A stretch of 64,000 bases of DNA, taken from NCBI RefSeq assembly GCF_001620055.1, contig NZ_LQGY01000040.1, positions 62,001 through 126,000 of the forward strand, given 5' to 3'. This stretch comes from Agromyces sp. NDB4Y10 (GTDB lineage: Bacteria; Actinomycetota; Actinomycetes; Actinomycetales; Microbacteriaceae). Shown here piece after piece: positions 24,527-44,761 of the stretch; positions within the stretch are counted from its first letter, which is position 1; each line of letters opens with the position of its first letter. The notes under the pieces are model-generated. The model was not told the origin of the DNA and made no database searches. It saw only the letters and a program-made list of their open reading frames with translations. The position numbers were made by a program, and so were the translations under genes.

Positions 24527-24565
24527 TTTCAGCGCCGCTGAACATGTTCTGGTGGGCCCATGATA
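24527..24565 (-). promoter_or_regulatory. Promoter and operator of the XRE-cupin regulator
   Basis: The minus-strand -10 box TATCAT (24565-24560) is followed by TTTCAGCGCCGCTGAAC (24527-24543), a copy of the cluster-wide inverted repeat TTCA-N7-TGAA, just downstream of the predicted transcript start. A short perfect palindrome GAACATGTTC (24540-24549) overlaps it. Autoregulation is inferred. Confidence 0.55.
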
Positions 24566-24600
24566 GCTGCACTTCGCAGGAATCCGATGCGCGCAGGCGA

Positions 24601-24631
24601 TTGCGTGTCCTCGTGTTCATCGTTACTGTAC
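24601..24631 (+). promoter_or_regulatory. Promoter and operator of the dehydrogenase-Dabb unit
   Basis: TTGCGT (24601-24606), a 17-bp spacer and TACTGT (24624-24629) form the promoter. GTTCATCGTTACTGTAC (24615-24631) covers the -10 and matches the cluster repeat GTTCA-N7-TGAAC with one mismatch. The position is suitable for repression by the divergent XRE-cupin protein. Confidence 0.6.
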
Positions 24632-24672
24632 AGATGGGATGCGGCCGAGCATCCCGTGACGGGGAGGTCGCC

Positions 24673-25569
24673 ATGGGTTCGGACGCAGGGTTCCTCGGCC
24701 TCGGGGCCATGGGGCGCGGGATGGTGGAGCGTCTCGCCGATGAGGGCGTCGGCGTGATCGCGTGGAATCGGAGCCCGGGACCGGCGACCGAGCTGGCCGA
24801 GCGCCTCGGCACGACGGCGGCCGACTCGCCCGCCGCGGTCTTCGGCGCGGCATCCGTGGTGCACTCGATGCTCGCCGACGACGAGGCCGTGCTCACCGTC
24901 TTCGACGACGAGCTGCTCGCCACCGTGCCCCCCGGTCGTGTCCACGTGAACCATGCCACCATCAGCCCGTCCGCCGCGGCCGAGCTCGCCGAGCGGCATG
25001 CGCGGCACGGCGTCGGATACGTCCAGGCGCCCGTGCTCGGACGCTCGACGATCGCATCGACCGGCGCGCTGCTCGTCGTCGTGTCGGGCGAGCCGTCGGC
25101 CGCCGAGGCGGCGATGCCGACGCTGGAGCGGCTCGGCCAGCGGGTCTGGAACCTCGGCGCCGACCCGCGCATGGCGAGCATCGTGAAGATCGCGGTGAAC
25201 TACTCGATCGTGAACGCGCTCCAGTCCATCGCGGAGTCCGTGGTCCTCGTCGAGTCCGCGGGCATCGATGGCGAGCAGTTCACGGAGATCCTCACCCACA
25301 CGGCGTTCAGCGGCTCCGTGCACCGCGGCTACGGCCCGCTCATCGCCGGCCGCCGCTACGAGCCGGTCGGCTTCTCGATGGCGCTCGGGCTGAAGGACCT
25401 CTCGCTGGCCGAGGACGCCGCTGACGCGCTCGGCGCCGCGCTGCCGATCGCGCCGGTGCTCAGGGAACTGTTCGAGGCGGCCCTCGCGGACCCCGAGCTG
25501 CGCGACCTGGACTGGTCGGCTGTCGCCGAGGTCACCCGTCGCCGCTCCGATCGCAGGGGGTCCGCATGA
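24673..25569 (+). CDS. NAD(P)-dependent beta-hydroxyacid dehydrogenase (HIBADH-like)
   Basis: The 298-residue protein begins with a Rossmann signature FLGLGAMGRGMVERL and has the domain order of 3-hydroxyisobutyrate/tartronate semialdehyde-type dehydrogenases: substrate-binding region APVLGRSTIASTGALLVVVSG and catalytic-lysine region SIVKIAVNYSIVNAL, followed by the all-helical C-terminal domain. The usual DAPVSGG is changed to QAPVLGR, so the substrate may differ from known members. GGGGAGG lies before the ATG at 24673. It overlaps the Dabb gene by ATGA. First gene of the catabolic cluster on the plus strand. Confidence 0.88.
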   Translation: MGSDAGFLGLGAMGRGMVERLADEGVGVIAWNRSPGPATELAERLGTTAADSPAAVFGAASVVHSMLADDEAVLTVFDDELLATVPPGRVHVNHATISPSAAAELAERHARHGVGYVQAPVLGRSTIASTGALLVVVSGEPSAAEAAMPTLERLGQRVWNLGADPRMASIVKIAVNYSIVNALQSIAESVVLVESAGIDGEQFTEILTHTAFSGSVHRGYGPLIAGRRYEPVGFSMALGLKDLSLAEDAADALGAALPIAPVLRELFEAALADPELRDLDWSAVAEVTRRRSDRRGSA

Positions 25570-25868
25570 TCCGCCACATCGTCCTGTTCAAGTTCGCCGA
25601 CCGGTCGCCACGCGCCGCGGCGGAGCAGGTCGAGACGCTCCGCAGCGCGCTCCAGCCGCTCGCGGCATCCGTGCCGGGCGTGCTCGGGCTTCGCGTGTCG
25701 GCCGACACGACCTCGATCGCCACGCACTGGGACGCCGCGCTCGAGACCGAGCACGCGTCGTGGGAGGACCTCGCCGCCTACCAGGCCCACCCCGAGCACC
25801 GGCGCGCCGTCGAGGCGATCGATGCGGTCGTGGCCGAGCGGGCGGTCGTCGACTACGAGGTGACCTGA
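25566..25868 (+). CDS. Dabb (stress-responsive A/B barrel) domain protein
   Basis: This 100-residue protein is a single Dabb domain: MIRHIVLFKFAD at the N-terminus, a central SVPGVLGLRVSAD and WEDLAAYQAHPEHRRAVEAI near the end. Dabb proteins are small dimeric ferredoxin-like barrels found in stress proteins and as cyclases or accessory enzymes in catabolic clusters. Its ATG overlaps the stop of the dehydrogenase, so they are co-translated. The 3' end overlaps the convergent ketopantoate-reductase-like gene by 16 bases. Enzymatic role here is unknown. Confidence 0.87.
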   Translation: MIRHIVLFKFADRSPRAAAEQVETLRSALQPLAASVPGVLGLRVSADTTSIATHWDAALETEHASWEDLAAYQAHPEHRRAVEAIDAVVAERAVVDYEVT

Positions 25869-26923
25869 GCGGCGACGTCCGACTCGGCCGACGCCGCCGC
25901 CTCGACGAGCCGTGCGGCGTTCTCGGGCGAGGGCGACAGCTCGCCGGCCTCCACCCGCTCGGCGAGCTGCAGGATCGCCTCGTTGACCGGCGCCCGCCCG
26001 CCGATCTCGGCGCGCTTGGCGACGATGTAGCCGCTGAACGCGTCGAGTTCGGCCCGCCGTCCCTTGTCCCAGTCCTGCAGGACGGCGACGCGCGTGTCGG
26101 GCAGGGAGAAGCGCTCGAGGACGACATCGAGCAGGTCGAGCGCGTACCGGTCGGAATCCGGGATCTGCTCCGCCGTCTTGCCGAGCACGGGCAGCATGCG
26201 GATCCCGAGGTCACGGGCCAGGGCGTAGGCCTCGCGTGAGGCCGCATCCATGACCGGACGCACGCCCTCGAGCCCCACAGCGGTGAGCAGCGGGACGCCG
26301 AGGATGGCCGACGGCAGCATCTCCGGGATGTTGGCGATGAGCTTCATCCACTTCGACGCGCGGATGTCGTCGCTGACCTCGGTCACGCCGGCGTGGGCGA
26401 GGGCGGCAGCGACCTGCTCCAGCCGCTCGGTGCGGCGGCCGTCCATGGAGCCGACCGTGAACCACGTACCGGACGGCGGGACCTGCCGCACGACGACACC
26501 CGGCTCGAACATGTTCGCCGCGATGCCGAGGACCGCGCCGATCGAGCGCTCCGCACCGAGGATCTCGGCGACGGCGTCGATCGTCATGCCGTTCTGCAGC
26601 CCGACCATGACCGAGTCGTCGCGCATCACGGGCTTCATCAGCTCGCACACCCAGCGCGTGTCGTACGTCTTCACCGAAGTGAAGACGAGGTCGAAGGTCG
26701 TGCGCAGCTCGGCCACCTGGCAGAGGTGGTACGCCTCCACCGGGGTCACCTGGGTCTCGTCGGGCAGGTGCACGGTCAGCCCGTCGGCGCGCATCGCCTC
26801 GACGTGGGCCGGCCACTGCTCGATGAAGGTCACGTCCAGCCCGGCGCGGATCAGGTCCGCGCCGATCGACGCCCCGTTCGCGCCGGTGCCGACGACGGCG
26901 ATGCGGAGTCGGGTCAGGTCCAT
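25853..26923 (-). CDS. Ketopantoate reductase-like (ApbA/PanE family) dehydrogenase, paralogue 1
   Basis: The 356-residue protein has the PanE Rossmann start RIAVVGTGANGASIGADLI, the loop VGLQNGMT and the C-terminal helical domain with the catalytic-lysine region SKWMKLIANIPEMLPSAIL. It is the most diverged of three consecutive paralogues: where the others read LNAAELVPSAIL it reads ANIPEMLPSAIL. GAGGAGGA precedes the ATG. It is longer than pantothenate-pathway PanE (about 300 residues), and triplication within a catabolic operon argues for a 2-oxo or 3-oxo acid reductase/hydroxyacid dehydrogenase in degradation rather than pantothenate synthesis. It is the last gene of the ABC-transporter operon. 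Confidence 0.87.
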   Translation of the reverse strand: MDLTRLRIAVVGTGANGASIGADLIRAGLDVTFIEQWPAHVEAMRADGLTVHLPDETQVTPVEAYHLCQVAELRTTFDLVFTSVKTYDTRWVCELMKPVMRDDSVMVGLQNGMTIDAVAEILGAERSIGAVLGIAANMFEPGVVVRQVPPSGTWFTVGSMDGRRTERLEQVAAALAHAGVTEVSDDIRASKWMKLIANIPEMLPSAILGVPLLTAVGLEGVRPVMDAASREAYALARDLGIRMLPVLGKTAEQIPDSDRYALDLLDVVLERFSLPDTRVAVLQDWDKGRRAELDAFSGYIVAKRAEIGGRAPVNEAILQLAERVEAGELSPSPENAARLVEAAASAESDVAAQVTS

Positions 26924-26970
26924 CGGGGTCCTCCTCGTTTTGCATGGTTCGGGTCGTCGAGGCGACGCCA

Positions 26971-28056
26971 TCAGGCGGATGCCGCCGGTCGCCGCAGCTC
27001 GGCGATGCGAGCCTCGAGCACAGGCTGCAGGTGCGTTCCGGGCACGCGGCGCCCGGCCTCGATGTCCTGGGCGAGCTCGACCACCGCCCGGTTCACGGGG
27101 GCCGGCTCGCCGAAGCGGGCGAGCGCCTCGACGACCGCCCCGTTGATCTCGTGGACCTCCGCGCGACGCCCCTTCGACCAGTCCTGCAGCACCGTCGAGC
27201 GGGAGTGCGGCAGGACGTAACCGGCCAAGAGCTCGTCGAGGACGGTCGCCACGAAGGTCTCCGGCGACGACGCCGCCTCGCCCGTCATGCCGAAGATCGG
27301 CCGGATCGTGAGGCCCATGAGCTGCGCGGCGCGGATCGCCTCGTCGCCGGCGTCGAGCATCACCTCGCGCATGCCCTCCCGGCGCGCGCAGTCGGCGATC
27401 GACAGGTCGAGGATGGCGGACGGCACGAGCTCCGCCGCGTTGAGGACGAGCTTCATCCACTTGGCGGAGGCGATGTCGTCGGTGACCTCGACGACGCCCG
27501 CGTGCCCGAGGATCGCGGCCACGGTCCCGAGGTGGTGGGCGCTCGCGGGGTCTGGCGCACCCACGGCGAACCACGAGCGGTCGTGCCCGGAGTGCCGCAG
27601 GACGGTGCCCGGCTCCTCCATCGCGGCGGTGATCTCGATGACCGCGCCGACGGCGCGGTGCGGCCCCATGATGTCGACGATGTCGCCCGCGGTCATGCCG
27701 TTCTGCACGCCGACCACGACGCCGTCGTCGGCGACGTACGGCTTGATCAGCTCACACGCCCACCGCGTGTCGTACGCCTTGACGAGCAGCAGCACGACGT
27801 CGAAACGGGTGCGCAGCTCGGCGGCCTGGCACAGGTGCAGGACCGGGACCTCAGTGACCTCGACGTCCGTCGGCAGTTCGACGCGGACGCCCCGTTCGCG
27901 GATCGCCTCGACGTTCGCCGGCCACTGGTCGACGAAGGTCACGTCGAGACCGGCCCGTGCGAGGTCGGCGCCGATGCCCGAGCCGTTGGCGCCGGTACCG
28001 AGCACCGCGATGCGCAGCCCGGCGAGGGGCGCGGCAGCCGTCGCATCGCCGGTCAT
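26971..28056 (-). CDS. Ketopantoate reductase-like (ApbA/PanE family) dehydrogenase, paralogue 2
   Basis: This 361-residue protein is collinear with its neighbours: RIAVLGTGANGSGIGADLA at the N-terminus, VVGVQNGMTAGDIVDIMG, and SAKWMKLVLNAAELVPSAIL containing the probable catalytic Lys and Asn. The start is 12 residues longer than in paralogue 3. Its ATG overlaps the stop of paralogue 3 (ATGA), giving tight coupling. The reaction is probably an NAD(P)-linked oxidation or reduction of a hydroxy/oxo compound; whether the three act as a heteromer or on successive intermediates cannot be told. Confidence 0.87.
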   Translation of the reverse strand: MTGDATAAAPLAGLRIAVLGTGANGSGIGADLARAGLDVTFVDQWPANVEAIRERGVRVELPTDVEVTEVPVLHLCQAAELRTRFDVVLLLVKAYDTRWACELIKPYVADDGVVVGVQNGMTAGDIVDIMGPHRAVGAVIEITAAMEEPGTVLRHSGHDRSWFAVGAPDPASAHHLGTVAAILGHAGVVEVTDDIASAKWMKLVLNAAELVPSAILDLSIADCARREGMREVMLDAGDEAIRAAQLMGLTIRPIFGMTGEAASSPETFVATVLDELLAGYVLPHSRSTVLQDWSKGRRAEVHEINGAVVEALARFGEPAPVNRAVVELAQDIEAGRRVPGTHLQPVLEARIAELRRPAASA

Positions 28057-29090
28057 GCGACCACCGCCGACTCGAGCAGTTCGGCCAGGTTGTGCATCCC
28101 GGGGGTCCGGCGCCCGGCCTCGATGTCGCGGGCGAGGGCGACCACCCGGTCGTTGCACGGCGCGGCGACGCCGGTGCGCTCCGCCTCGCGGACGACGTGG
28201 CCGTTCAGCTCCTCGACCTCGGCGCGCCGGCCCTTGCGCCAGTCCTGCAGGACCGTCGTGAGCGTGCTCGGCAGCGTGTACACGTCGAGCACGATCTCGA
28301 GCAGCCGGTCGGCGTAGCCGTCCGGGCCCGCGAGGTCCGCGTCGGTCATGCCGAAGATCGGCATGAGGCGGCCCCCGGCGGCCAGCGACGTCCGCACCGC
28401 CTCCCGACCGGTTCGAACCATGAAGTCCCGCATGCCCGGTACGCGCACTGCCTCGTCGAGCGGAAGGTCGAGGATCGCCGACGGCACGAGCTCGGCCGCG
28501 TTCACGACGAGCTTCATCCACTTCGACGAGCGGATGTCGGCCGACACCTCCGCCCGACCAGCTGCTCGCAGCACGGCGACGACCTCCTCCGCGCGAGCGT
28601 CGGCCCCCGGATGGATGCCGCCGACGGCGAACCAGGTCTCCTCGCGCGTGTTCTGCCGCTCGACCACGCCCGGCACGAACAGGTTCGCGGCGATCTCGAT
28701 GACCGCACCCAGCGTCCGATGCGCGCCGACGATCTCCGCGACGTCGTCGACCGTCATGCCGTTCTGCAGGCCCACCACGAGGCCCTCCTCGGCCAGCAGC
28801 GGCCGGATCAGCTCGCACGCCCACCGGGTGTCGTACGCCTTGACGACGAGGAACACCAGGTCGAACGGTTCCCGCAGCTCGGCGACCTCGCAGAGATGGT
28901 GCACCCGCACGGGCGTGAGCTCCACGCCATCCGGCATCTCGACACGGATGCCGCGTTCGCGCATCGCCGCGACGTGTGCGGGCCACTGCTCGATGAAGGT
29001 CACGTCGTGGCCCGCACGGACGAGGTCCGCTCCCACGCCGGCGCCGTTCGCCCCCGCGCCGAGCACGGCGATGCGCGGTGCGCCCGCCAC
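28053..29090 (-). CDS. Ketopantoate reductase-like (ApbA/PanE family) dehydrogenase, paralogue 3
   Basis: The 345-residue protein starts at a GTG four bases after the stop of the ABC-transporter gene. It has RIAVLGAGANGAGVGADLV, TFIEQWPAHVAAMRERG (nearly identical to paralogue 1 at this place), VVGLQNGMTVDDVAEIVG, and SSKWMKLVVNAAELVPSAIL. The repeated C-terminal motif VLQDWxKGRRAEV is shared by all three and seems special to this subgroup. Position directly behind the importer genes implies that the imported compound or an early product is its substrate. Confidence 0.87.
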   Translation of the reverse strand: MAGAPRIAVLGAGANGAGVGADLVRAGHDVTFIEQWPAHVAAMRERGIRVEMPDGVELTPVRVHHLCEVAELREPFDLVFLVVKAYDTRWACELIRPLLAEEGLVVGLQNGMTVDDVAEIVGAHRTLGAVIEIAANLFVPGVVERQNTREETWFAVGGIHPGADARAEEVVAVLRAAGRAEVSADIRSSKWMKLVVNAAELVPSAILDLPLDEAVRVPGMRDFMVRTGREAVRTSLAAGGRLMPIFGMTDADLAGPDGYADRLLEIVLDVYTLPSTLTTVLQDWRKGRRAEVEELNGHVVREAERTGVAAPCNDRVVALARDIEAGRRTPGMHNLAELLESAVVA

Positions 29091-29094
29091 CCGG

Positions 29095-31629
29095 TCAGAC
29101 CTTCCGCGCGGCGCGCCGACGACGCTTCGACCGGGCGACCGCGTAGAGGATCGCGGCTGCGAGGATCAGGATGCCCTGCAGGATGTACTGCCACATCTGG
29201 TCGAGCCGGAGGAACACGGTCGCGTTGAGCACCTGGACGAGCAGCATCGCGCCGAAGAGCGTGCCGACGAAGGTGCCTCGTCCGCCGAGGAGGCTCGTGC
29301 CGCCGAGCACCACCGCGGTGATGCTGGAGAGCGTGTACGCGACGCCCTGCGCGGGGTCGCCCACGCCGATCTGCGTCATGAGCATGATCGCGCCGAAGAA
29401 GGTGAGCACGGAGGTCGCGACGTAGGCGAGCACGACGGTGCGGTTGATCTCGACGCCGACGCGGCGCGCGGACTCCTCGTCGGACCCCGCCGCGCGGAGC
29501 CGCCACCCCCACGGCGTGCGGCGGAGCGCGTACTCGAGCGCGACGACGACGAGGACGAGGACGATGAACGCGACCGGGATCGGTCCGATCTTCGTCGTGA
29601 TCGCCCGCGAGATGTCGGCGTTGATGTAGCCGCCCGCGGTCGGGCGGAGGATGAAGCTCATGCCCTGGAGGGCGATGTAGACCGTCAGGGTCGCCGCGAT
29701 CGCGGTGAACTTCACGTACCTGATCAGGGTGCCGTTCACGAGGCCGACCACGATCGAGGTTCCGAGCATGGCCGCGAAGCCGAGCAGGATCGAGGCGGTC
29801 GACGACTCGTTGAGGATGAAGAACGAGCCGATGACGACGAGGAACCCCACGAGCGGCCCGACCGACAGGTCGATGCCGCCGGTCAGCAGGGCGATGGTCT
29901 GGCCCATGGCGATGAACCCGAGCGCCGAGACGAGCAGGAGCATGGCGGAGATGTTGAACGCGCCGAGGTACCGGTCGTTCTGGGCGAAGATGAACGCCCC
30001 GAGCAGCACCATGACCGCGACGAGCAGCACCGCCGGGGCGTAGTCGCCCTGCACGAAGCGGCGGATCTTCGCCCGCCGGACGGCGGTCCGCTCGTCGACG
30101 TCCGCGTCCGTGATGTCCTCGACGCCCACGGTGGACGTGGTCGAGCTCACCGCGGCGTGGATCATCCGCTCCTCGGTGAGGTCGTCGCCGCGGAGCACGT
30201 CGACCACGTGGCCGCGCGACATCACGATCACGGTGTCGCACAGCCCCTCGAGTTCCTTGGCGTCCGAGGAGGCGACGATGACGGGGATGCCGGACGCGGA
30301 CACCTCCCGGAGGATCTGGTAGATCTCGGCGCGGGCGCCGACGTCGACGCCCTGCGTCGGCTCGTCGGCGAGCACGAGCTCCGGCTCGGAGAGGAGCGCC
30401 CGCCCCACCATGACCTTCTGCTGGTTGCCACCCGAGAGCGACGAGACCGGGGCGTCGAGCGAGGCCGCCTTCACGGAGAGCGAGCCCAGGGTGTCGCCGA
30501 CCATGCCGAGCTCGCGCTTGCGGTTGAGCAGCCGCCCGGTGCGGAACCGCTCGAGCGCGGAGATCGCCGCGTTCTCCCGGACGGTGAGCCGCATCATCAG
30601 GCCCTCGCTCAGGCGGTCGGCCGGCAGGTACGCGGCCTCGCCGAGGAGTCGCTTGGAGGTGACCTGCGTGCCGTTGATCGACACGGACCCCTCGAAGTGG
30701 GAGAGCCCGGCGAGGGCGCGGAGCAGGTCGCTCTGGCCGTTGCCGACGACGCCCGCGATCCCGATGATCTCGCCGCGGCGGGCCGTCAGCGAGACGTCCT
30801 TGAAGCCGGGACCCGTGAGCCCCTCGATGATGAAGTTGGGGGCCTCGTCGGGCCCGTCGTGCTTGGGCGGGAACGTGGAGTCGAGCTGGCGGCCCACGAT
30901 GAGCGCCAGGAGCTCCCGGTCGCTGATCTCGTCGACGACCGCTGTCGCCCGAAGTCGACCGTCGCGCAGCACCGTGACGCGGTCGGCCAGCTCGCGGACC
31001 TCGGCCAGGCGGTGGGTGATGTACACGACCGAGGTGCCGCCCGCGACGAACTCGCGCACGAGACGGAACAGCATGCGCACGGCGTCCTCGCCGAGCGGCG
31101 CCGTCGGCTCGTCGAGCACGAGGAGCGCCGGCTTCACCGCGATCGCCTTGGCGATCTCGAGCAGGTGCTTCTGCGCGACCGAGAGGGTCTCGACGCGATC
31201 CGACAGGTGGGCGCGGAGGTTCACCCGCGCGAGGAGCGAGCGGGCGAACTCCTCGCGCGACGGCGCCTCGGCGAAGACCGCCGGCGGCAGGGCGACGAGC
31301 AGGTTCTCGTACACCGTCATGTCCGGCAGCACGGCGGGGTGCTGGTGGACGAAGGCGATGCCGAGGCGCGTCGCGTCGCGCGGGTCGATGCCGTCGATGG
31401 GCTCGCCCCGGAACACCATCGAGCCGGCGTCCGGACGGATGGTGCCCGTCGCGACGTTCATCAGCGTGGACTTGCCGGCGCCGTTCTCACCGAGCAGCGC
31501 GTGCACCTCTCCGGGGCGCACCTCGAGCGACACGTCGGTCAGCGCGGCGACGCCGCCGAAGCTCTTCGAGATGCCGGACATGACGAGGGTGGCGACGGTG
31601 GCGGGTGCTTCGGCGGCTTGGATGTTCAC
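29095..31629 (-). CDS. Ribose-type ABC importer: ATP-binding protein fused to permease
   Basis: The 844-residue protein combines RbsA and RbsC. NBD1 (residues about 15-250) has Walker A GENGAGKST and DEPTAPL with an altered signature LSVAQKH. NBD2 (about 260-500) has a degenerate Walker A (VVGNGQSD), signature LSGGNQQKV and DEPTQGVDV. A linker (about 500-530) leads to a BPD_transp_2 permease domain (about 535-835) with GLTGGIDLSVG-like ALLTGGIDLSVGP and VVLGGTSLLGGRGT. In most systems these are separate genes. GTG start at 31629; an upstream in-frame extension is rejected. It works with the separate permease and binding protein upstream in the operon. Confidence 0.93.
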   Translation of the reverse strand: MNIQAAEAPATVATLVMSGISKSFGGVAALTDVSLEVRPGEVHALLGENGAGKSTLMNVATGTIRPDAGSMVFRGEPIDGIDPRDATRLGIAFVHQHPAVLPDMTVYENLLVALPPAVFAEAPSREEFARSLLARVNLRAHLSDRVETLSVAQKHLLEIAKAIAVKPALLVLDEPTAPLGEDAVRMLFRLVREFVAGGTSVVYITHRLAEVRELADRVTVLRDGRLRATAVVDEISDRELLALIVGRQLDSTFPPKHDGPDEAPNFIIEGLTGPGFKDVSLTARRGEIIGIAGVVGNGQSDLLRALAGLSHFEGSVSINGTQVTSKRLLGEAAYLPADRLSEGLMMRLTVRENAAISALERFRTGRLLNRKRELGMVGDTLGSLSVKAASLDAPVSSLSGGNQQKVMVGRALLSEPELVLADEPTQGVDVGARAEIYQILREVSASGIPVIVASSDAKELEGLCDTVIVMSRGHVVDVLRGDDLTEERMIHAAVSSTTSTVGVEDITDADVDERTAVRRAKIRRFVQGDYAPAVLLVAVMVLLGAFIFAQNDRYLGAFNISAMLLLVSALGFIAMGQTIALLTGGIDLSVGPLVGFLVVIGSFFILNESSTASILLGFAAMLGTSIVVGLVNGTLIRYVKFTAIAATLTVYIALQGMSFILRPTAGGYINADISRAITTKIGPIPVAFIVLVLVVVALEYALRRTPWGWRLRAAGSDEESARRVGVEINRTVVLAYVATSVLTFFGAIMLMTQIGVGDPAQGVAYTLSSITAVVLGGTSLLGGRGTFVGTLFGAMLLVQVLNATVFLRLDQMWQYILQGILILAAAILYAVARSKRRRRAARKV

Positions 31630-31675
31630 GTGAGGATCCTCACTCCGGGCTCGGGGGTCTGGTCGGTGGTTCGGG

Positions 31676-31714
31676 GGTCTCCCGGTCCGCTGCGGGCGCG
31701 CGGACCGGGAGACC
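31676..31714 (-). promoter_or_regulatory. Intercistronic hairpin after the binding-protein gene
   Basis: GGTCTCCCGGTCCG (31676-31689) pairs perfectly over 14 bp with CGGACCGGGAGACC (31701-31714), with an 11-nt loop, in the 100-base gap between the binding-protein gene and the fused ATPase-permease gene. Such hairpins commonly act as partial terminators or mRNA stabilisers that keep binding protein in excess; that role is inferred here. Confidence 0.7.
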
Positions 31715-31729
31715 GTGGGGCGGGCTGCG

Positions 31730-32839
31730 CTACTCGAGCAGCGCGGCCTGCTCGTCGGCGTCCATCTCGGCCGACAGGTAGATGTCGCCCGGGAGGTCGT
31801 CACGGCACTGGACCTCGCTGGGATCGCCGTCGACCGAGTCCTCGAACTGCGGTGCCTCGAAGAGCGTGTCCTCGGGGATCTCGCCGCCCGTGGCCCGGGC
31901 CACGGCGTGCTGCACGGCGAGCCGCACGTTGTCGTTGCCGGTCGCGACCGTGGTGAGCTTGAAGTCGGGGTTGTCCGGCGACTTCTCCTGCCAGAAGCAG
32001 GCGAGCACGTTGCCGTCCGACGTGGCGAGCGCCGGGATCGACCGGCCGCTCTTCTCGAACTCGGGCAGTGCGCCGACCAGCGACGGACCGAAGTCGGAGA
32101 CGATCACGTCGATCTGGTCGTACTTCGCGATCGCCGCGGTGAGGACCTGCTGCGTGAGCGCCGGGTCCCAGTTCGTGACCTCGTACGGCTGCTCGCCGAT
32201 GAACTCGTACTTCGGGTCCGTGAGCACCGACTCGAAGCCCTCGCGCTCGTCGAGGCCCTGGCTGTTGCCGGCCGGACCGCTCAGGAACAGGATCTTCGCC
32301 CCGTCGGGGAAGTTCTCCTGGATCCACTCGCCCCACGCGACGCCGTCGGCGACGAAGTCCGCACCGACCCAGACGTCGTAGTCCACGCCGGCCTCGCCGC
32401 CCGGGTCGACCCGGTACGGCACGGTGACCACGCCGGCCTCGTACGCGCTCCGAAGCGCGGGCAGCATCGCCTCGCCGGCATCCGGGAAGACCACGATGGC
32501 GTCGGCGCCCGACGCGACCATGCCCTGGATGTCGGAGATCGCCTTCTGCGTGTCGCCCTGACCGTCGGCGTACAGGTACTCGACGACGCTCGGGCACTTC
32601 TCGACCTCGTCCTGGCCGGCCGCGGTCGTGACCAGGCGCCAGCTGTTCCCGCCGAAGCCGTCGAGCAGGCCGACCACGGCCTCCTCGGGGCCGCACCAGG
32701 CCGGTGCGCCCTCGACCGAGCCGCCGTCGCCGCCGCCGCCGCCCTCGCCGCCGCCGCCGTCGCCCGAGGAACAGCCCACGAGGGCCAGTGCCGAGACGCC
32801 AGCGACGGCGATCGCCGTGGTGATTCTGCGACGAATCAT
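31730..32839 (-). CDS. Sugar-type ABC transporter substrate-binding lipoprotein
   Basis: The 369-residue lipoprotein has a signal ending in the lipobox LVGC (Cys about residue 21), a Gly/Asp-rich tether (GGGGEGGGGGDGG) and a type I periplasmic-binding fold of the ribose/LacI type: TQKAISDIQGMVASGADAIVVFP, ILFLSGPAGNSQGLDEREGF and VIVSDFGPSLVGALPEFEKSG. Start ATG 32839 is preceded by GGAGGA. Ligand-contact residues are not typical enough to name the sugar. It should deliver an unknown sugar-like or polyol-like molecule to the two permease domains of this operon. Confidence 0.9.
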   Translation of the reverse strand: MIRRRITTAIAVAGVSALALVGCSSGDGGGGEGGGGGDGGSVEGAPAWCGPEEAVVGLLDGFGGNSWRLVTTAAGQDEVEKCPSVVEYLYADGQGDTQKAISDIQGMVASGADAIVVFPDAGEAMLPALRSAYEAGVVTVPYRVDPGGEAGVDYDVWVGADFVADGVAWGEWIQENFPDGAKILFLSGPAGNSQGLDEREGFESVLTDPKYEFIGEQPYEVTNWDPALTQQVLTAAIAKYDQIDVIVSDFGPSLVGALPEFEKSGRSIPALATSDGNVLACFWQEKSPDNPDFKLTTVATGNDNVRLAVQHAVARATGGEIPEDTLFEAPQFEDSVDGDPSEVQCRDDLPGDIYLSAEMDADEQAALLE

Positions 32840-32914
32840 CTTGTCCTCCATCTCCGCGCGACCGCTATGTCGCACGTCTCTCTTGGTGCACCTCGCTCCG
32901 AAGGAGCGGGGGTC

Positions 32915-34221: not shown

Positions 34222-34242
34222 TAATGTTTACCCCAACTGAAC
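34222..34242 (+). promoter_or_regulatory. Promoter and operator of the PRISE-type SDR gene
   Basis: A -10 box TAATGT (34222-34227) overlaps GTTTACCCCAACTGAAC (34226-34242), which matches the cluster repeat GTTCA-N7-TGAAC at nine of ten arm positions. TGAAC is followed six bases later by GTTCG, as in the bicupin operator region. The ATG lies 25 bases downstream with GAGAGAGG between. Confidence 0.6.
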
Positions 34243-36391: not shown

Positions 36392-36408
36392 GTTCGGATC
36401 TCCTTCGT

Positions 36409-37467: not shown

Positions 37468-37528
37468 GGCGCTCGGCCACCTTTCTCTGTTCGGGTTCGC
37501 ACGCCGGGCACCGACCCGGCGGCGCTGG

Positions 37529-38611
37529 TCAGGAGGATCGGGTCGGGTCGAACAGGACCTTGCCGCGGATCTCTCCGCGGGCGAGCCGCTCGATCTGGTG
37601 CGGCGCCTCGGGCAACGGGAACACGGCCTCGACGAGTTCGTCGCCGAGGTCGGTGGAGGCGAGGATCTCGAGCGCGGGCGCGAGATCCTCGTCGCAGACG
37701 TGCGCGACCGTCGTGACGATGGTCACCTCGTTCATGACCAGGCGGTGCACGTCGAGATCCTGGTGCGCCGACGGCAGGCCGACGCCGAGGATCGTGCCGC
37801 CCTGGCGGACCAGGTCGAGCGCCATCGACAGTTGACCCGGAGCGCCGGTCGCCTCGATGACGACATCCGCCCCGCCCGGCCCGACCACCGATCGCAGTGT
37901 CGCGACGAGGTCGTCGTCGACCGGCACGGTCCGGGTGGCACCGAGCCGCTGCGCGCGTTCGAGCCGCTCGCCGGCGAAGTCGACGACCGTGATGTCCGCG
38001 TCGACGAGCGAGACGAGCCCCGCGAGGATGAAGGTTCCGATCGCGCCGGCACCGAACAGGATCACGCGGTCGCCGTCACGGGCGCCGGCGCGGCGGGCGG
38101 CGTGCAGGCCGACGGCGAGCGGCTGCGCGACCCCGGCGTCGTCGAGCGAGCAGCCCTCCGGGATCGGCACGAGGGTCGACGTCTCGACCGCCACGTACTC
38201 CGCGAGTCCCCCGTCGGCGTTGAGGCCGTGGGTGACATAGCGGGCGCAGAGGTTGGTCCGTCCCTCCCGGCAACGGTCGCACTCGCCGCACGAGACACCG
38301 GCGCCGGATGCCACGTGGGTGCCCACGCCGAGCCCGTCCACGGGCCCGCCGGGCAGGTCGACGATCTCGCCGACGAACTCGTGCCCGATGACCAGCGGAC
38401 CGGTGTGGCCGCTGTTGGGATGCACGCGGTCGATCGGGAAGATGATCGGGCCGGACTTCCACTCGGTGGCATCCGTCCCGCAGATGCCGCTGCGGAGCAC
38501 CCTGACGAGCGCCTGGCCCTCGGTGGCGATCGGGATCGGCCGCCGCTCGACGCGGACGTCGCCGCGGCCGTGGTACACGACGGCGTCCATGGTGCCGATC
38601 GGCGTGGTCAT
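37529..38611 (-). CDS. Zinc-dependent alcohol dehydrogenase, threonine/sorbitol dehydrogenase type
   Basis: The 360-residue protein shows the catalytic zinc ligands in SGICGTDATEW and IGHEFVGE, a structural zinc loop CGECDRCREGRTNLC, and the nucleotide-binding motif VILFGAGAIGTFI. ATG 38611 was chosen because GAGGAG lies before it and it is 11 bases after the M24 stop. QPLAVGLHAARRAG matches the family's helix near the active site. Second of three alcohol dehydrogenases in the operon; substrate unknown. Confidence 0.9.
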   Translation of the reverse strand: MTTPIGTMDAVVYHGRGDVRVERRPIPIATEGQALVRVLRSGICGTDATEWKSGPIIFPIDRVHPNSGHTGPLVIGHEFVGEIVDLPGGPVDGLGVGTHVASGAGVSCGECDRCREGRTNLCARYVTHGLNADGGLAEYVAVETSTLVPIPEGCSLDDAGVAQPLAVGLHAARRAGARDGDRVILFGAGAIGTFILAGLVSLVDADITVVDFAGERLERAQRLGATRTVPVDDDLVATLRSVVGPGGADVVIEATGAPGQLSMALDLVRQGGTILGVGLPSAHQDLDVHRLVMNEVTIVTTVAHVCDEDLAPALEILASTDLGDELVEAVFPLPEAPHQIERLARGEIRGKVLFDPTRSS

Positions 38612-38622
38612 CTCGCCGCTCC

Positions 38623-40005
38623 TCACGCCCCGGGCCGTCCCCACTCGGTGTTGAGGTGCGACTGCGAGTCACGCGTCAGGTCGAGCGGGCCGCCGACCGC
38701 GTAGTACCGCTGGCCGGCGACCAGCAGCTCCTCGGCGGGGAACTTCGTGATGACCTCGCAGCCGTCCGCGGTGACGACGACCTCCTCCTCGATGCGCGCG
38801 GCCCCCCAGCCGTCGGCCGACGGCCAGTACGTCTCGAGCGCGAACACCATGCCCTCCTCGATCACCTCCGGGTGGTCGAACGAGACCAGACGCGAGAAGA
38901 TCGGCTTCTCCCAGATCGAGAGGCCGACGCCGTGCCCGTACTGCAGCGCGAAGGCGGCCTCCTCGTCCGGGAACCCGAACTCCTCGGCCTTCGGCCACAC
39001 CGACACGATGTCGGCGGTCGTCGCCCCCGGCCGCACGAGCGCGATGGCCCGGTCCATGTACTCCCGCGCGCGTGTGTACGCGTCCTTCTGGGCGGAGCTC
39101 GCGGAGCCGACCGCGAACGTGCGGTAGTAGCAGGTGCGGTAGCCGTTGAAGCTGTGCAGGATGTCGAAGAACGCCGGGTCGCCGGGCCGGATGAGGCGGT
39201 CGGAGAACACGTGCGGGTGCGGCGAGCAGCGCTCGCCCGAGATGGCGTTGACGCCCTCGACGTACTCGGACCCGAGGTCGTACAGGGTCTTCGCCACCAG
39301 GCCGACCGCCTCGTTCTCGCGGACGCCCGGCCGGAGGAAGCGGTACAGGTCCTCGTAGGCGGCATCCACCATGGAGGCGGCCTGCGTGAGCAGCCGGATC
39401 TCGTCGCCGGTCTTGATCCGGCGGGCCTCCATGAACACCTGCTGGCCGTCGACGACCTCGATGCCCTCCTTCTGCAGGGCGAAGAGGATCGGCAGCTCGA
39501 TGACGTCCACCCCGAGCGGCTGGTCGGCCAGGCCGAACTTCTCGAGCTCGCGCTTGATCTTCCTTGCGACGCCCTCGGCGATCTCGGCGTCCGGCGGGAA
39601 CGCCCCGCGGAGCGTGGAGATCCCCGCGCGAGCGCCGCTCTCGAGACGGGGGCGCTTGGCGCCCTCGTGCGGCGCGTTCGGGTCCGCGTCCATCTCGGCG
39701 GTCGTCACGTCGAGCCACGGGTTGTACAGCTTGTGGTGCTTCGCGGCCGATCCGAAGTCCCACGAGATGGGGTCGGTGTTGCGCGTCAGGAGGCTGAACC
39801 GGATCAGCTTGTCCATCGCCCAGGTGCCGATGTGGGTGGCCGTCATGTACCGGATGTTCGAGAAGTCGAAGGCGAGCAGCGCGCCGAGGTCGGACCGCTC
39901 GAGTTCGGCCTTCAGACGTGCCAGCCGGTCGTCGCGCAACCGGTCCATGTCGACCCGCGCCTCCCAGTCGACCGCGTTGGTTCCCGTGGTGCCCGTGCTC
40001 TTCAT
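38623..40005 (-). CDS. M24-family (creatinase/aminopeptidase P fold) protein with altered metal site
   Basis: The 460-residue protein has an N-terminal creatinase-type domain and a C-terminal pita-bread domain. Of the five usual metal ligands, the first Asp (PAFFDILHS), the His (YGHGVGLSIWEKP) and both Glu (FALETYW, ARIEEEVVV) are present, but the second Asp, eleven residues after the first, is Cys (GYRTCYYRTF in place of GYxSDxTRT). The second active-site His of peptidases (GLxxHE) is Trp. So ordinary dinuclear-metal peptidase action is unlikely. M24 relatives include non-peptidases such as creatinase and DMSP lyase DddP; an unusual hydrolase or lyase is inferred. Second gene of its operon. 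Confidence 0.85.
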   Translation of the reverse strand: MKSTGTTGTNAVDWEARVDMDRLRDDRLARLKAELERSDLGALLAFDFSNIRYMTATHIGTWAMDKLIRFSLLTRNTDPISWDFGSAAKHHKLYNPWLDVTTAEMDADPNAPHEGAKRPRLESGARAGISTLRGAFPPDAEIAEGVARKIKRELEKFGLADQPLGVDVIELPILFALQKEGIEVVDGQQVFMEARRIKTGDEIRLLTQAASMVDAAYEDLYRFLRPGVRENEAVGLVAKTLYDLGSEYVEGVNAISGERCSPHPHVFSDRLIRPGDPAFFDILHSFNGYRTCYYRTFAVGSASSAQKDAYTRAREYMDRAIALVRPGATTADIVSVWPKAEEFGFPDEEAAFALQYGHGVGLSIWEKPIFSRLVSFDHPEVIEEGMVFALETYWPSADGWGAARIEEEVVVTADGCEVITKFPAEELLVAGQRYYAVGGPLDLTRDSQSHLNTEWGRPGA

Positions 40006-40039
40006 GTTGATCGCTCTCTCGGTGTAGGGCCGGTCCTCG

Positions 40040-40819
40040 TCAGACGAGGATCATGCCGCCTTCGATGGGGATGATCTGGCCCGTGATGTAGTCGGAATCG
40101 GCCGCCGCGAGGAACACGCCGGTCGGCACGATGTCGACCGGGTCGGCGGGGCGGCCGAGCAGGATGCTGCTCGACATCGAGTCGAAGCCGTTCTGGCCCT
40201 CGCCGATCTCCTCGAGTTCCTTGTCGAGCTTGGTCCAGAGCGGCGTCGCCACGACGCCCGGAGCGAATCCGTTCACGGTGATGCCGTGCTCGGCGAGCGC
40301 GCGTGCGCCCGCCTGCGTCAGCGAGATGACGGCGGCCTTCGCGGCGCTGTACGGGGCGAAGCTCGAGAAGCCCTGTCGCCCCGCGATCGAGGCGGTGTTC
40401 ACGACCTTCCCCCCGCCGCCCTGGGCGATGAACTGCCTGGCGGCCTCCTGCGTGCCGATGAGGACGCCGAGCGCGTTCACGCGCATGACGAGTTCGAAGT
40501 TCGCCTCGGTCACGTCGAGGAACTTCATGGGCGAGTTCATTCCGGCGTTGTTGAAGTAGGCGTCGAGCCGACCGAAGCGCTCGACGGCGCGCTCGATGCC
40601 GGCGCGGACCGCCGACCGGTCGGCGACGTCGACGCGCACGGCGAGCGCGCTCCCGCCCGAGTCCTCGATGCGGCCGGCGAGCTGCTCGGCAGCCGCGAGG
40701 TCGAGGTCGGCGATGACGACGTTCGCCCCTTCGTCGGCGAACCCACCGGCGAGCGCCGCACCGATACCCGATGCCCCGCCGGTGACGACGATCGTGCGAC
40801 CCTCCAGTCGACCCGTCAT
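40040..40819 (-). CDS. Classical SDR oxidoreductase
   Basis: The 259-residue protein is a classical short-chain dehydrogenase: cofactor motif VTGGASGIGAAL, Asp at the end of the second strand (IADLDL, so NAD is probable), FNNAG, catalytic Ser in NTASIAGRQG and YSAAK with the Tyr and Lys, and a C-terminal GQIIPIEGGMI. ATG 40819 has GAAGGAG before it. It is the first gene of the operon SDR, M24 protein and three alcohol dehydrogenases. A copy of the cluster operator overlaps its promoter. Likely oxidises a secondary alcohol of the substrate or an early intermediate. Confidence 0.92.
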   Translation of the reverse strand: MTGRLEGRTIVVTGGASGIGAALAGGFADEGANVVIADLDLAAAEQLAGRIEDSGGSALAVRVDVADRSAVRAGIERAVERFGRLDAYFNNAGMNSPMKFLDVTEANFELVMRVNALGVLIGTQEAARQFIAQGGGGKVVNTASIAGRQGFSSFAPYSAAKAAVISLTQAGARALAEHGITVNGFAPGVVATPLWTKLDKELEEIGEGQNGFDSMSSSILLGRPADPVDIVPTGVFLAAADSDYITGQIIPIEGGMILV

Positions 40820-40876: not shown

Positions 40877-40893
40877 GTTCACTATAACTGAAC
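40877..40893 (-). promoter_or_regulatory. Operator and promoter of the SDR-M24-dehydrogenase operon
   Basis: GTTCACTATAACTGAAC is the perfect form of the cluster repeat (GTTCA-N7-TGAAC). The minus-strand -10 box TATAGT (40886-40881) lies inside it, so a bound protein would block RNA polymerase. In the 309-base gap to the VOC gene, 40894-41060 shows nothing else recognisable. Confidence 0.7.
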
Positions 40894-41063
40894 TTACTGC
40901 CGACCGATCGGTGAATCAAGTGAACGGCTCGTCCACATTCGGACGCTCGCCTCGACCACCCATCGCGCCGGGCTGGCGCCGCTCGGGCGCGAAATTCCGG
41001 AGGATGCAGGCTGGCTGATGGCCCCCTCGGCCCTTGCCAAGGGCGGCATCCGTGGTGTTGAGT

Positions 41064-41093
41064 CTGAATGGAAACCGTTCAGTGCTACCGAGC
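41064..41093 (+). promoter_or_regulatory. Weak copies of the cluster repeat before the VOC gene
   Basis: CTGAA (41064-41068) and TTCAG (41078-41082) form an inverted repeat, and GTTCAGTGCTACCGAGC (41077-41093) keeps the left arm and the inner TAC of the cluster repeat but only part of the right arm. The site is 36 bases before the VOC start. Functional status uncertain. Confidence 0.35.
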
Positions 41094-41128: not shown

Positions 41129-41578
41129 ATGACGTTCACCATCGACGGCGTGCATCACGTCGGAATCACGGTCCGCGACATGCGGCGATCGTTCGACTGG
41201 TACTCGCGGATGTTCGGGTTCGAGCCGGGACCCGTCAACCACGGTGCCGGGCCGGAGCTCGAGCGGGGCGTCCAGGTCGAGGGCGCCGAGCTGTCGTTCG
41301 CGATGATCCGCGTGGGCAACGTCAACATCGAGTTCCTCGAGTACCACCAGCCCGAGGGGAAGGACTGGGACCGGGCGAACGGCGACGTGGGTTCGGCCCA
41401 TATCTGCTTCGTGGTCGACGACATGCAGCGCGCCTACGACGAGCTCATCGAGCGCGGCGCCGTCTTCAACGGGCCGCCGACCACGATCACCGACGGCGAC
41501 CTGGCCGGGTCGCAGTGGGCGTACCTCCGCGACCCCGACGGGATCCAGCTCGAGATCTGGCAGTACCCCAAGGAGTGA
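41129..41578 (+). CDS. VOC-superfamily (glyoxalase/epimerase-like) protein
   Basis: The 149-residue protein is one VOC unit: VHHVGITVRDMRRSFDWYSRMFGF in the first module, GSAHICFVVDDMQRAYDEL in the second, and a C-terminal DPDGIQLEIWQYP with the metal-binding Glu. The likely metal ligands are His in VHHV, His in AHIC and this Glu. ATG 41129 is chosen over an upstream in-frame ATG because GAAGGAG lies just before it and homologues start here. Single gene inside the catabolic cluster; possible epimerase, isomerase or ring-cleavage step. Confidence 0.85.
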   Translation: MTFTIDGVHHVGITVRDMRRSFDWYSRMFGFEPGPVNHGAGPELERGVQVEGAELSFAMIRVGNVNIEFLEYHQPEGKDWDRANGDVGSAHICFVVDDMQRAYDELIERGAVFNGPPTTITDGDLAGSQWAYLRDPDGIQLEIWQYPKE

Positions 41579-41630: not shown

Positions 41631-43076
41631 TCAGTCGTCTTCCTTGTACTGGTACGGGTTGGCGATCGGCTCGTCCTCGGGGATCTGCGGGTGCATCCAC
41701 TCGTCCCACGCCTGCTCGCCGAGGCTGCTGCGCACGTACTCGACGGATGCCGCGACCTTGTCGCGTACGGGCGCGAGCGGCAGGTCGATCCGCCTGCCGT
41801 CGTACTTCACCACCCTGCCGTTGACGACGACGGTGTGCACGTCGGCGGTGCCCGCCTGGAACACGACGTGGGCGTACGGGTTCAGGATCGGCGTCATCGC
41901 GGGCGACTCGTCGTTCTTGATGAGGACGACGTCGGCCTTCTTGCCCACGGTGAGCGATCCCAGCTTGTCGGTCATGCCGAGCGTGGTCGCCCCGCCCATC
42001 GTGGCCTGCCAGACCACGTCCTCGGCGCGGAGCCGGTTGACGTTGACCGTCTCGCCCTTCGACTGCATCTCGAGGTGGTCGCGCGAGCGGAACGCGCTGA
42101 GGGTCGCGCGCATCGCCGAGAAGAAGTCCGCGCTCCACCACACGCTCGTGTCCATCGAGAGCGACGTCGGGATCCCGTACTTGCGGACCGCCCACGTCGA
42201 CGGGTAGCCCTGGCCCGCGCTCTGCTCGCTCTCGGTGGCCACCGAGACGGTGCCGCCGGTGGCCGCGATCTTCTGGTAGCTCTCGGGGCCGAGCGATGCC
42301 GCGTGCACGTAGGTGACCTTGTCGGTCATCCACCCGCCGTCGTACATGTGGGAGATGCTCTGGTCGGTCGTGGCGCCCCACACGCCCGCGTGCGTCGTGA
42401 CCCGGAGGTCGAGGTCGCGGGCCGCCTGGAAGGCGGCCTGCTCGGGGAAGTCCTCGCTGGCCGGGACGTCGAACGCCAGTTGCAGGCCCAGCATGTCGTC
42501 GGGCGCGTTGAAGTTGTCGGTGACGAACTTCCGGAACTCGGGACTGTTCGCCCATTCCCATGGCGCCCCGAGGTAGTTGCCGTAGGCGAGCACGAACCGG
42601 CCGGGGATCTCGCGGAACGCCTGCAGTGCCGCCTCGCCGTATTCGGGCGTGCGGAGCGCGTGCGACCAGTCGAGGGTCGTCGTCACGCCCTGGTCGATCG
42701 ACTCGAGCGCGCTCAGGAGGTTCCCCGCGTAGATGTCCTCGGGCCGGAACACCTCGCCCCACGTCAGGTAGTAGAAGACGAAGTACTGGCTGAGGCCCCA
42801 GTCGCCGCCGTACCCGCGGAGCGCGGTCTGCCACATGTGACGGTGCGTGTCGATCATGCCCGGCATGACGATGCCGCCCGTCGCGTCGATCTCGAGGGTG
42901 CCCTCGGGCACCTCGAGCCGGGGTCCGACGCCGGCGATGGTCTCACCGTCGATGAGCACGTCGGCGTTCTCGAGCACGCCCTGGGAGTCGACGGTGATCA
43001 CCGTCGCGTTGCGGAAGACGACGGGACGACCGGAGGCGAACTCCTCCGGGCGTGGCCGTGCTGCGGCGTCGGTCAT
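41631..43076 (-). CDS. Amidohydrolase-superfamily deaminase/hydrolase
   Basis: The 481-residue protein is of the TrzN/AtzA/guanine-deaminase-like metal-dependent hydrolase type. Metal-site elements in order are DTHRHMWQ (HxH), VTTHAGVWG, YVHAASLG and LSMDTSVWW (Asp). The N- and C-terminal strands form the small beta-sandwich (FRNATVITVDSQGV; GSLTVGKKADVVLI). The extra acidic C-terminus (PQIPEDEPIANPYQYKEDD) is unusual. Last gene of the bicupin-SDR-amidohydrolase operon. It probably hydrolyses or deaminates a cyclic or amide-bearing intermediate; the compound is unknown. Confidence 0.88.
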   Translation of the reverse strand: MTDAAARPRPEEFASGRPVVFRNATVITVDSQGVLENADVLIDGETIAGVGPRLEVPEGTLEIDATGGIVMPGMIDTHRHMWQTALRGYGGDWGLSQYFVFYYLTWGEVFRPEDIYAGNLLSALESIDQGVTTTLDWSHALRTPEYGEAALQAFREIPGRFVLAYGNYLGAPWEWANSPEFRKFVTDNFNAPDDMLGLQLAFDVPASEDFPEQAAFQAARDLDLRVTTHAGVWGATTDQSISHMYDGGWMTDKVTYVHAASLGPESYQKIAATGGTVSVATESEQSAGQGYPSTWAVRKYGIPTSLSMDTSVWWSADFFSAMRATLSAFRSRDHLEMQSKGETVNVNRLRAEDVVWQATMGGATTLGMTDKLGSLTVGKKADVVLIKNDESPAMTPILNPYAHVVFQAGTADVHTVVVNGRVVKYDGRRIDLPLAPVRDKVAASVEYVRSSLGEQAWDEWMHPQIPEDEPIANPYQYKEDD

Positions 43077-43116
43077 TGGTTCCTCCTCGTTGAGTGTTCC
43101 GGCCTGGCCCGGCCGG

Positions 43117-43824
43117 TCAGGTGATGCGCCAGCCGCGGTCGACGCACAGGTTGATGCCCGAGACCCCGCGGTTCTCGAGCAGGAACATCGTGGCGCCCAC
43201 GATGTCGGCCATGGTGGCGAGGGCGCCGCCCGGCGTGCGCGACTCGTACCCGGCGAGCACGCCCTCGGGTTTGCCCGCCCAGAAGGGGCTGTCGCCCACG
43301 ATCCCCGGGTGCAGTCCGTTCACCCGCATGGGCGCGAGCTCGAGCGCGAGGCTGTGCACCAGGCCCTCGACGCCGCCGTTGATCGTCGACACGGTGGTCG
43401 AGCCCGGGTACGGCGCGTCCTTGGCCCGCCCGCCGAACAGGACGATGCCCGTGTCGTTCGATTCCTCGAGGCGTCCGAGCAGCGTGTGCACCGTCTCGGT
43501 GTAGCCGACGAGCTTGAGGGTGACGAGCCGCTTGGCGCGGGCGATGTCGTAGTCGCGGACGGTGTTGGCGTCCCGCTCGATCGCGGCGAGCACCAGGCCG
43601 TGCACGGCACCGATGCCGGCCAGGCTCGCCGCGATGGTCTCGGGCTCGGAGATGTCGACGGCGACGCCGGTGGCTCCTTCACCGACGGATGCGGCGACCT
43701 CGCGGGTGCGCTCGGGGTCCCGCCCGGTCAGGACCACCCGGTCACCCCGACGCACCACCTCCTTCGCGACCTCGAGGCCGATGCCGGACGTGCCCCCGAC
43801 GACCACCACGGTGCGTTCGCTCAC
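43117..43824 (-). CDS. SDR-fold protein with degenerate catalytic motif
   Basis: The 235-residue protein has a good cofactor motif (VVVVGGTSGIGLEVAKEV) and the SDR C-terminus, but the catalytic YxxxK is replaced: where classical SDRs read YSASKAALEGL this has VSTINGGVEGL, so Tyr becomes Val and Lys becomes Asn. The NNAG motif is also altered (VLAAIERDA). It may be a non-catalytic or mechanistically different SDR. GTG at 43824 overlaps the bicupin stop (GTGA) and follows GGAGGAG. Middle gene of the operon. Confidence 0.83.
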   Translation of the reverse strand: MSERTVVVVGGTSGIGLEVAKEVVRRGDRVVLTGRDPERTREVAASVGEGATGVAVDISEPETIAASLAGIGAVHGLVLAAIERDANTVRDYDIARAKRLVTLKLVGYTETVHTLLGRLEESNDTGIVLFGGRAKDAPYPGSTTVSTINGGVEGLVHSLALELAPMRVNGLHPGIVGDSPFWAGKPEGVLAGYESRTPGGALATMADIVGATMFLLENRGVSGINLCVDRGWRIT

Positions 43825-44717
43825 GACTCCTCCTCCAGTCGCTCGGCGAGGTAGTCCCAGTCGCGCACGAACCGGTAGGCATGCCGTGCCGGCATCTGGG
43901 GCGACTGCGTCTCGAGCCAGCGCACCGGCGCACCGGTGGCCTCGAACGAGTGGATGCACCCCACGCCGGCCCAGGCGATGTCGCCCGGGCGGAGCCGGAC
44001 GGTCTCGCCGTCGAAGCTCGCGTCCACCTCGCCCTCGAGGATCAGGTAGGCCTCTTCCAGCGGATGGTCGTGCGGCCCCGCTCGCCCGTCCGGCTCGTAC
44101 TGCACCATGAACATGGTCGACAGGGTGGAGCCGAGGTCGGAGTCGACCATCATCTTGAGCGAGATGCCGCTGTAGACGAGCAGCGCCGTGCGCATGCTCG
44201 CCGACTGGGCGAGGAGCTCCTGAGACTGCCTGCCCGGGTCCATCTGCTCGGTCGTGATCGCGCCGAACGAACGCGTCCGCGGGTCGCGCGGGTCGACCGG
44301 GATCGGCTCCCGGGCCGGAAGTGCGGGGACGCGGTAGGTGTCGGAACCGTAGCGCTTCCGGGGCGGCGGCGCGAAGATGTCGGCCCAGACGGCCTCCGCA
44401 TCGCCGGAGGCGTGCCACTCGTGCGGCACGCCGACGGGGATGACGCCGTAGTCGCCCGCGACCAGCCGGACGGTGGCCTCCGGCGTCGCGAGGATCACCT
44501 CGCCCTCGAGCACGTGGAACGACTCCTCGAAGGAGTGGACGTGCGCGGGCACCGACCCGCCCGGGGCGAGACGGGAGATGCCGAAGTCGGTGTGCGCCGA
44601 CCCGTCGTCGTACCCGACCGCGCACCAGCGGGTGAGGCCCTCCGACCCGGGCGCGAGTCCCTCGGGGACCTCGTACTCTGCGGAGTCGGATCGACGGACG
44701 AGATGGCGAACGGTCAT
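43821..44717 (-). CDS. Bicupin protein
   Basis: The 298-residue protein contains two cupin domains. The first (about residues 45-115) has PAHVHSFEESFHVLEGE with a His/His/Glu metal set and PVGVPHEWHA; the second (about 200-280) has GPHDHPLEEAYLILEGE and VGCIHSFEA. The domain arrangement resembles (S)-ureidoglycine aminohydrolase and related bicupins, but identity is not clear. GGAGG precedes the ATG. It is the first gene of the operon with the degenerate SDR and the amidohydrolase and has a cluster operator 28 bases upstream. Isomerase, hydrolase or dioxygenase activity is possible. Confidence 0.85.
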   Translation of the reverse strand: MTVRHLVRRSDSAEYEVPEGLAPGSEGLTRWCAVGYDDGSAHTDFGISRLAPGGSVPAHVHSFEESFHVLEGEVILATPEATVRLVAGDYGVIPVGVPHEWHASGDAEAVWADIFAPPPRKRYGSDTYRVPALPAREPIPVDPRDPRTRSFGAITTEQMDPGRQSQELLAQSASMRTALLVYSGISLKMMVDSDLGSTLSTMFMVQYEPDGRAGPHDHPLEEAYLILEGEVDASFDGETVRLRPGDIAWAGVGCIHSFEATGAPVRWLETQSPQMPARHAYRFVRDWDYLAERLEEES

Positions 44718-44732
44718 GTGTGCCTCCGGCTG

Positions 44733-44761
44733 CTGAACATCTACGTTCAGTTACGGTGAAC
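44733..44761 (-). promoter_or_regulatory. Operator of the bicupin operon
   Basis: GTTCAGTTACGGTGAAC (44745-44761) is a perfect-arm copy of GTTCA-N7-TGAAC. It overlaps a second inverted repeat, CTGAAC-ATCTAC-GTTCAG (44733-44750), so three half-sites alternate. The position 16-44 bases upstream of the bicupin start fits repression. The rest of the gap up to 44881 shows nothing else. Confidence 0.65.

Follow-up and report, generated by a model that had tools for sequence, protein, structure and literature searches.

Which protein reads the inverted repeat GTTCA-N7-TGAAC that recurs between the genes of a catabolic cluster of ∼21 kb (23.7–44.8 kb) in the window, the 64,000 nucleotide stretch of Agromyces sp. 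NDB4Y10 DNA analysed here, and do its copies mark one regulon? Contig C40, which carries the window, belongs to a genome totalling 3.34 Mb, and gene models divide the cluster into seven transcription units. The initial annotation had quoted seven copies of the repeat, all of which are present where it placed them, and had assigned them to the XRE-cupin protein encoded at 23743–24492. We consider it very probable that the repeat is the operator of this protein, which would repress its own gene as well as the cluster operons, and comparison among relatives lends strong support to the proposal of one operator class, common to most cluster units and read by the XRE-cupin protein. The five strong candidate operators are as follows, the first placing the regulator gene itself among the units with a site, as had been claimed.

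24527–24543: TTTCAGCGCCGCTGAAC, 35 bp before the XRE-cupin gene; conserved in the relative G057
24615–24631: GTTCATCGTTACTGTAC, 42 bp before the HIBDH-like gene; covers the −10 box of TTGCGT-17-TACTGT
34226–34242: GTTTACCCCAACTGAAC, 26 bp before the PRISE gene; conserved in G057 and G050
40877–40893: GTTCACTATAACTGAAC, exact match, 58 bp before the SDR gene; overlaps the end of the −10 box in TTGATT-17-TAAGTT
44745–44761: GTTCAGTTACGGTGAAC, exact match, 28 bp before the cupin gene; immediately follows TTGACA-17-TGGAAT, an arrangement shared by G057 and G014

Allowing up to one mismatch, exactly five matches were found in the window, every one intergenic and within the cluster. The whole genome contained 22 such matches as compared with three for a reversed control pattern, and the presence of five of the 22 inside 20.2 kb (binomial P ∼2e-7, kinship ignored) speaks for the regulon proposal. 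With a matrix built from relatives' sites only, no other position in the window scored as high as the five sites (scores 18.3–26.6; maximum of 14.9 in 40 shuffled windows). They also led the genome's 22 matches, with a tie at 18.3 between the lowest of them and C55:164415, a match that falls inside a gene model. Seven of the other 17 genome matches lie in gene models and eight at 3–170 bp before a modelled gene start; position alone thus does not distinguish the cluster sites from other genome matches, but density, score and conservation do. The exact match at C39:10883, located 169 bp before a gene, lacks the spacer pattern described below (pyrimidine at position 7, purine at 11), scores 11.9 and is taken as a chance match. 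Outside the cluster, C55:131032 (L197:2033–2049) has a score of 18.0; with the gene of an MFS transporter starting 102 bp downstream, it marks a possible further target.

A search for the regulator at E up to 1e-45 identified it in 18 of 199 genomes, the source genome counted, and up to 40 kb around each regulator was taken for an unbiased scan in which every 5-mer inverted repeat at spacers of 0–14 was counted (15,360 dyads). Across 17 clusters (the source and 16 relatives, G097 being left out of the cluster comparison), 127 intergenic regions with promoters lie no more than 10 kb from the regulator; in these, GTTCA-7 ranked first with 24 occurrences versus 0.33 expected, followed by TTGGA-0 with 21 versus 0.17. 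GTTCA-7 was again first (11 versus 0.67 expected) in 95 ‘far’ regions, a set that contains outer sites of long clusters and all 19 regions of G068, which have real-looking sites and were placed there because the gene models had missed the G068 regulator. In alignments with G057 and G050 the sites appear as conserved islands, and in G057 50 of 50 core bases are identical as compared with 479 of 876 intergenic bases beyond the sites. Exact matches numbered 18 in the 18 regulator-bearing genomes, nine of them within ∼21 kb of the regulator (one of the nine in a gene model), versus 12 in 18 regulator-free genomes.

Conservation beside the regulator gene was assessed with a held-out matrix made from this genome's five sites, the threshold being the 99th percentile of shuffled upstreams. 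A putative palindromic operator next to its own gene, as at 24527 here, was thereby detected for 14 of 18 regulator genes in relatives, and for 42 of 79 in a named set of 80 loci (L151 having no upstream; nine of the 80 are genomes already among the 199), in which 6/79 downstreams and 8/380 random stretches passed. The sites are thus conserved upstream of many regulator orthologues, as the regulon proposal had implied.

A full recount of 41 intergenic sites chosen by their core bases in the fetched clusters (a hand-picked set of 37 had omitted four of them) revealed a pyrimidine at position 7 in 39, a purine at position 11 in 38 and both in 36, so that these spacer positions are constrained though they were unused in the site search; both were found together in three of five coding sites of the fetched clusters and in 8 of the 17 genome matches outside the cluster. 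As the third half-site base varies in the named set (GTT, GTA, GTG; TGAAC, TTAAC), the motif was written GTDCAGY-N3-RCTKAAC. The form originally proposed, GTTCA-N7-TGAAC, came first in the unbiased scan but was too narrow, the aligned sites indicating a wider motif of about this composition.

Four conserved promoters were composed from the alignment and afterwards checked: TTGCRT-17-TACTGT before the HIBDH gene in two genomes (TTGCGT here, TTGCAT in G057) and, each in three genomes, TTGTGA-17-TAAAGT before the transporter unit, TTGATT-17-TAWGTT before the SDR operon and TTGACA-17-TGGAAT before the cupin gene. In all four, a site overlaps or directly follows the −10 box, at an offset that varies. 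Of three −10 boxes originally said to overlap sites, TACTGT was retained as part of TTGCGT-17-TACTGT, TATAGT was replaced by the better fitting conserved TTGATT-17-TAAGTT, and TAATGT at 34222 had no −35 box seen by eye on the alignment.

Chance matches or fixed core-promoter elements could be suspected from the window count at up to two mismatches, which is close to chance (12 matches versus 7.95 expected, reached by nine of 100 shuffles, and weak as a count alone), and from the copy at 34009, which is explained by a −35 box; the unbiased rank, the conservation, the symmetric spacer constraint and the variable offset from the −10 box make this explanation hardly conceivable. An RNA hairpin with 5 bp arms was considered as well. 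The XRE-cupin protein might also bind the sites yet act as an activator, or change sign with its ligand. We regard this as highly unlikely, given that the sites lie over or after the −10 box, where a bound protein blocks the polymerase, and that the characterized Pseudomonas relatives are described as inhibitors in the text of PMC7901475. Repression by the XRE-cupin protein is the reading preferred here.

The regulator is encoded as follows.

23743–24492, − strand: XRE-cupin regulator, 249 aa; Pfam HTH_3 (6.2e-14) and Cupin_2 (3.3e-15), each over its cut-off

It consists of an N-terminal Cro/CI-type helix-turn-helix (HTH) domain and a C-terminal cupin domain whose residues H145, E149 and H183 are invariant in 17 aligned sequences. 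PuuR is its best NCBIfam match, yet at 74.4 bits versus an equivalog cut-off of 211 this identity was rejected; E. coli PuuR has the same architecture, from which the present system differs by the sub-cut-off score and by a cluster in which no polyamine genes were recognized. ClgR, with an operator that we take to be of the GTTCGC type, was likewise rejected as an identity (24.5 bits versus an equivalog cut-off of 170).

The initial annotation knew of no operator of this form in this regulator family, which was too strong a statement: the text of PMC7901475 describes Pseudomonas XRE-cupin proteins (ErfA, PsdR, PauR and others) as local specialized repressors with palindromic sites beside their own gene, the operators being said to differ among one another. 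Common to these repressors and to the present system are the XRE HTH domain with a cupin, palindromic operators, a site at the own gene and local metabolic targets, whereas the present system belongs to another phylum and has five strong sites in one cluster, the Pseudomonas repressors having mostly one or two targets and PauR up to 12 sites; the Pseudomonas consensus letters are given in a supplementary figure (PMC7901475). Predicted XRE motif clusters obtained by a similar method are also palindromes upstream of XRE genes (PMC12565409); GTTCA and TGAAC are absent from the main text of that study, and the motif may be in its supplementary table of 223 clusters. No account of this motif was found in a literature search, which did not cover supplements. 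The operators of BioQ (TGAAC-N3-GTTCA) and RolR (TGAAC-N4-GTTCA), as given in the accounts available, have the half-sites in the opposite order and a TetR-type reader. Judged from sequence, the putative regulator–operator pair agrees with the known XRE-cupin type in every testable feature and is a new, well-supported example of it.

Besides the regulator gene, the cluster comprises six transcription units.

24673–25868, + strand: HIBDH-like dehydrogenase (24673–25569) and Dabb protein (25566–25868), from domain matches and gene models
25853–33928, − strand: transporter unit of six genes, encoding a permease (RbsC2), a substrate-binding protein (SBP), a fused ATPase-permease and three PanE-like reductases
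34268–35347, + strand: PRISE-type reductase (progesterone 5-beta-reductase/iridoid synthase-like)
35417–40819, − strand: SDR, M24-family enzyme and three zinc-type alcohol dehydrogenases (ADH)
41129–41578, + strand: VOC (glyoxalase-like) protein
41631–44717, − strand: double-cupin protein, SDR and amidohydrolase

In relatives, genes were labelled by their best matches to the cluster proteins, at identities down to 30%, and the upstream counts are not independent, divergent genes sharing sites. With the held-out matrix, upstreams passed for M24 (10/13), AmidoH-like (10/10), Cupin (3/3), PanE1-like (8/9), PanE2 (3/3), PanE3, Dabb and ADH3 (1/1 each), SDR1 and SDR2 (4/6 each), PRISE (3/5), RbsC2 (3/4), VOC (2/4), HIBDH (3/7), ADH2 (1/4) and SBP (1/6), and for none of two ADH1 and seven RbsAC genes. 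M24 is present in 21 of the 199 genomes, among them every one of the 18 regulator-bearing genomes. In the 20 kb taken from G137, many of the enzymes are encoded with no XRE-cupin homologue and no site (best score 7.8). In the 20 kb of G085, the regulator is diverged (38%) and M24 is preceded by one weaker site (13.8). In G036, a site precedes M24 on a contig different from that of the regulator (score 16.8, from a matrix that includes some of the sites scored with it).

Several observations weigh against a regulon read by the XRE-cupin protein. Strong sites precede five of the seven units, and not every divergent unit as originally stated, the RbsC2 operon and the VOC gene having weak candidates only. 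In a plain unnormalized dyad count of 300 bp upstreams, GTTCA-7 occurred in 7 of 18 and was not singled out, GC-rich dyads reaching up to 9 of 18 and shuffle maxima 6–8. Upstreams of 17 of 242 other genes passed the held-out threshold, 10 of the 17 being divergent partners of a cluster gene at a common promoter. In the named set, 37 of 79 regulator upstreams stayed under the threshold; among 14 of these that were inspected, a gene model on the same strand immediately precedes the regulator in 12 (distance unchecked), and a site scoring at least 14 lies elsewhere in the locus in nine and is missing in five. Before the G036 regulator itself there is no site (−5.6). In G105, a site with a score of 16.2 (L111:8721–8737) that lacks the purine at position 11 is located ∼110 bp before M24 in a 20 kb locus with no XRE-cupin homologue; it is perhaps there by chance.

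For the two units without a strong site, the weak copies of the initial annotation and the better candidates detected here are as follows.

33978–33994, − strand: ATAAAGTGTGGCTCAAC, probable weak operator of the transporter unit; covers the −10 box of TTGTGA-17-TAAAGT
34009–34025: copy from the initial annotation; only the TTGTGAAC half conserved; the −35 box of the transporter promoter lies within it; score 6.4
41057–41073: GTTGAGTCTGAATGGAA, perhaps a weak operator of the VOC gene; lies in a block with partial conservation in three genomes
41077–41093: GTTCAGTGCTACCGAGC, copy from the initial annotation; only the left half recurs in G057; score 11.2

With half of each conserved, low scores and a conserved −35 box in the former, 34009 and 41077 were rejected as conserved operators, and 34009 is probably no operator. 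The candidate at 33978 scores 8.9 here, 11.1 in G057 and G050 and, at a similar distance, 17.0 in G101.

A further regulator and a dehydrogenase component are encoded beside the cluster.

20156–22342: 2-oxoacid dehydrogenase E1 gene
23031–23711: GntR-FCD regulator, neighbour of the cluster

The second palindrome of the region, TTGGATCCAA, stands beside the GntR-FCD gene. The dyad TTGGA-N0-TCCAA, the second strongest in relatives, occurs here as the perfect palindrome GGATTGGATCCAATCC at 22410–22425, between the E1 gene and the VOC and GntR-FCD genes, and is probably the GntR operator. The GntR gene travels with the cluster in many relatives, and the GTTCA palindrome could thus be read by the GntR-FCD protein instead. 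We consider this very improbable and have rejected it: the E1/VOC-GntR promoter has its own distinct palindrome, TTGGA-N0-TCCAA, GTTCA sites are almost missing from it (held-out matrix: E1 1/14, VOC-22510 1/14, GntR 0/2), and in G036 sites lie near the XRE-cupin regulator although GntR is on another contig. The operator is attributed to the XRE-cupin protein because the own-gene site is kept in relatives, because no site occurs in the 20 kb of G137, which has many of the enzymes but no XRE-cupin homologue there, and because another palindrome stands beside the GntR gene.

Directly observed are the sites themselves, where they lie, how far they are conserved and that they accompany the regulator gene; from this we infer binding, dimerization, repression and an inducer. 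A dimer of the XRE-cupin protein would bind through its HTH domains to the 17 bp palindrome GTDCAGY-N3-RCTKAAC (GTTCA-N7-TGAAC at the best sites) and, located over or just after the −10 box, would keep both its own gene and the cluster operons from being transcribed. Induction would then come from a small molecule, probably a pathway substrate or intermediate imported by the RbsABC-type transporter, whose binding to the cupin domain would release the repressor. Such a mechanism is of a known kind, an ordinary local genetic switch. What the analysis provides is a candidate operator for a regulator subfamily that tens of Actinomycetota genomes carry. The operator in turn yields a list of genes which, whether or not they are scattered, probably belong to a single undescribed catabolic pathway. 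With evenly balanced confidence, we propose a lineage-wide XRE-cupin regulon (Actinomycetota, mostly Microbacteriaceae) in which the operator is fixed, enzyme genes are reshuffled between genomes and at least one target, M24 in G036, is controlled in trans. It would serve a catabolic pathway not yet described that includes a PRISE-type enone reductase and a highly conserved M24 enzyme, and would be nested with a GntR-FCD regulon for a 2-oxoacid dehydrogenase step.

Matches to solved structures did not name the substrate of the pathway, M24 and the amidohydrolase giving broad families only. The M24-family enzyme (38623–40005) shows 78–97% identity between genera, and its score is far under the DddP cut-off. 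The ABC transporter protein at 29095–31629 is a fusion, one chain containing two ATPase domains and a permease domain. The bacterial PRISE reductase (34268–35347) has plant progesterone 5-beta-reductases and iridoid synthases as its best solved-structure matches (3e-78).

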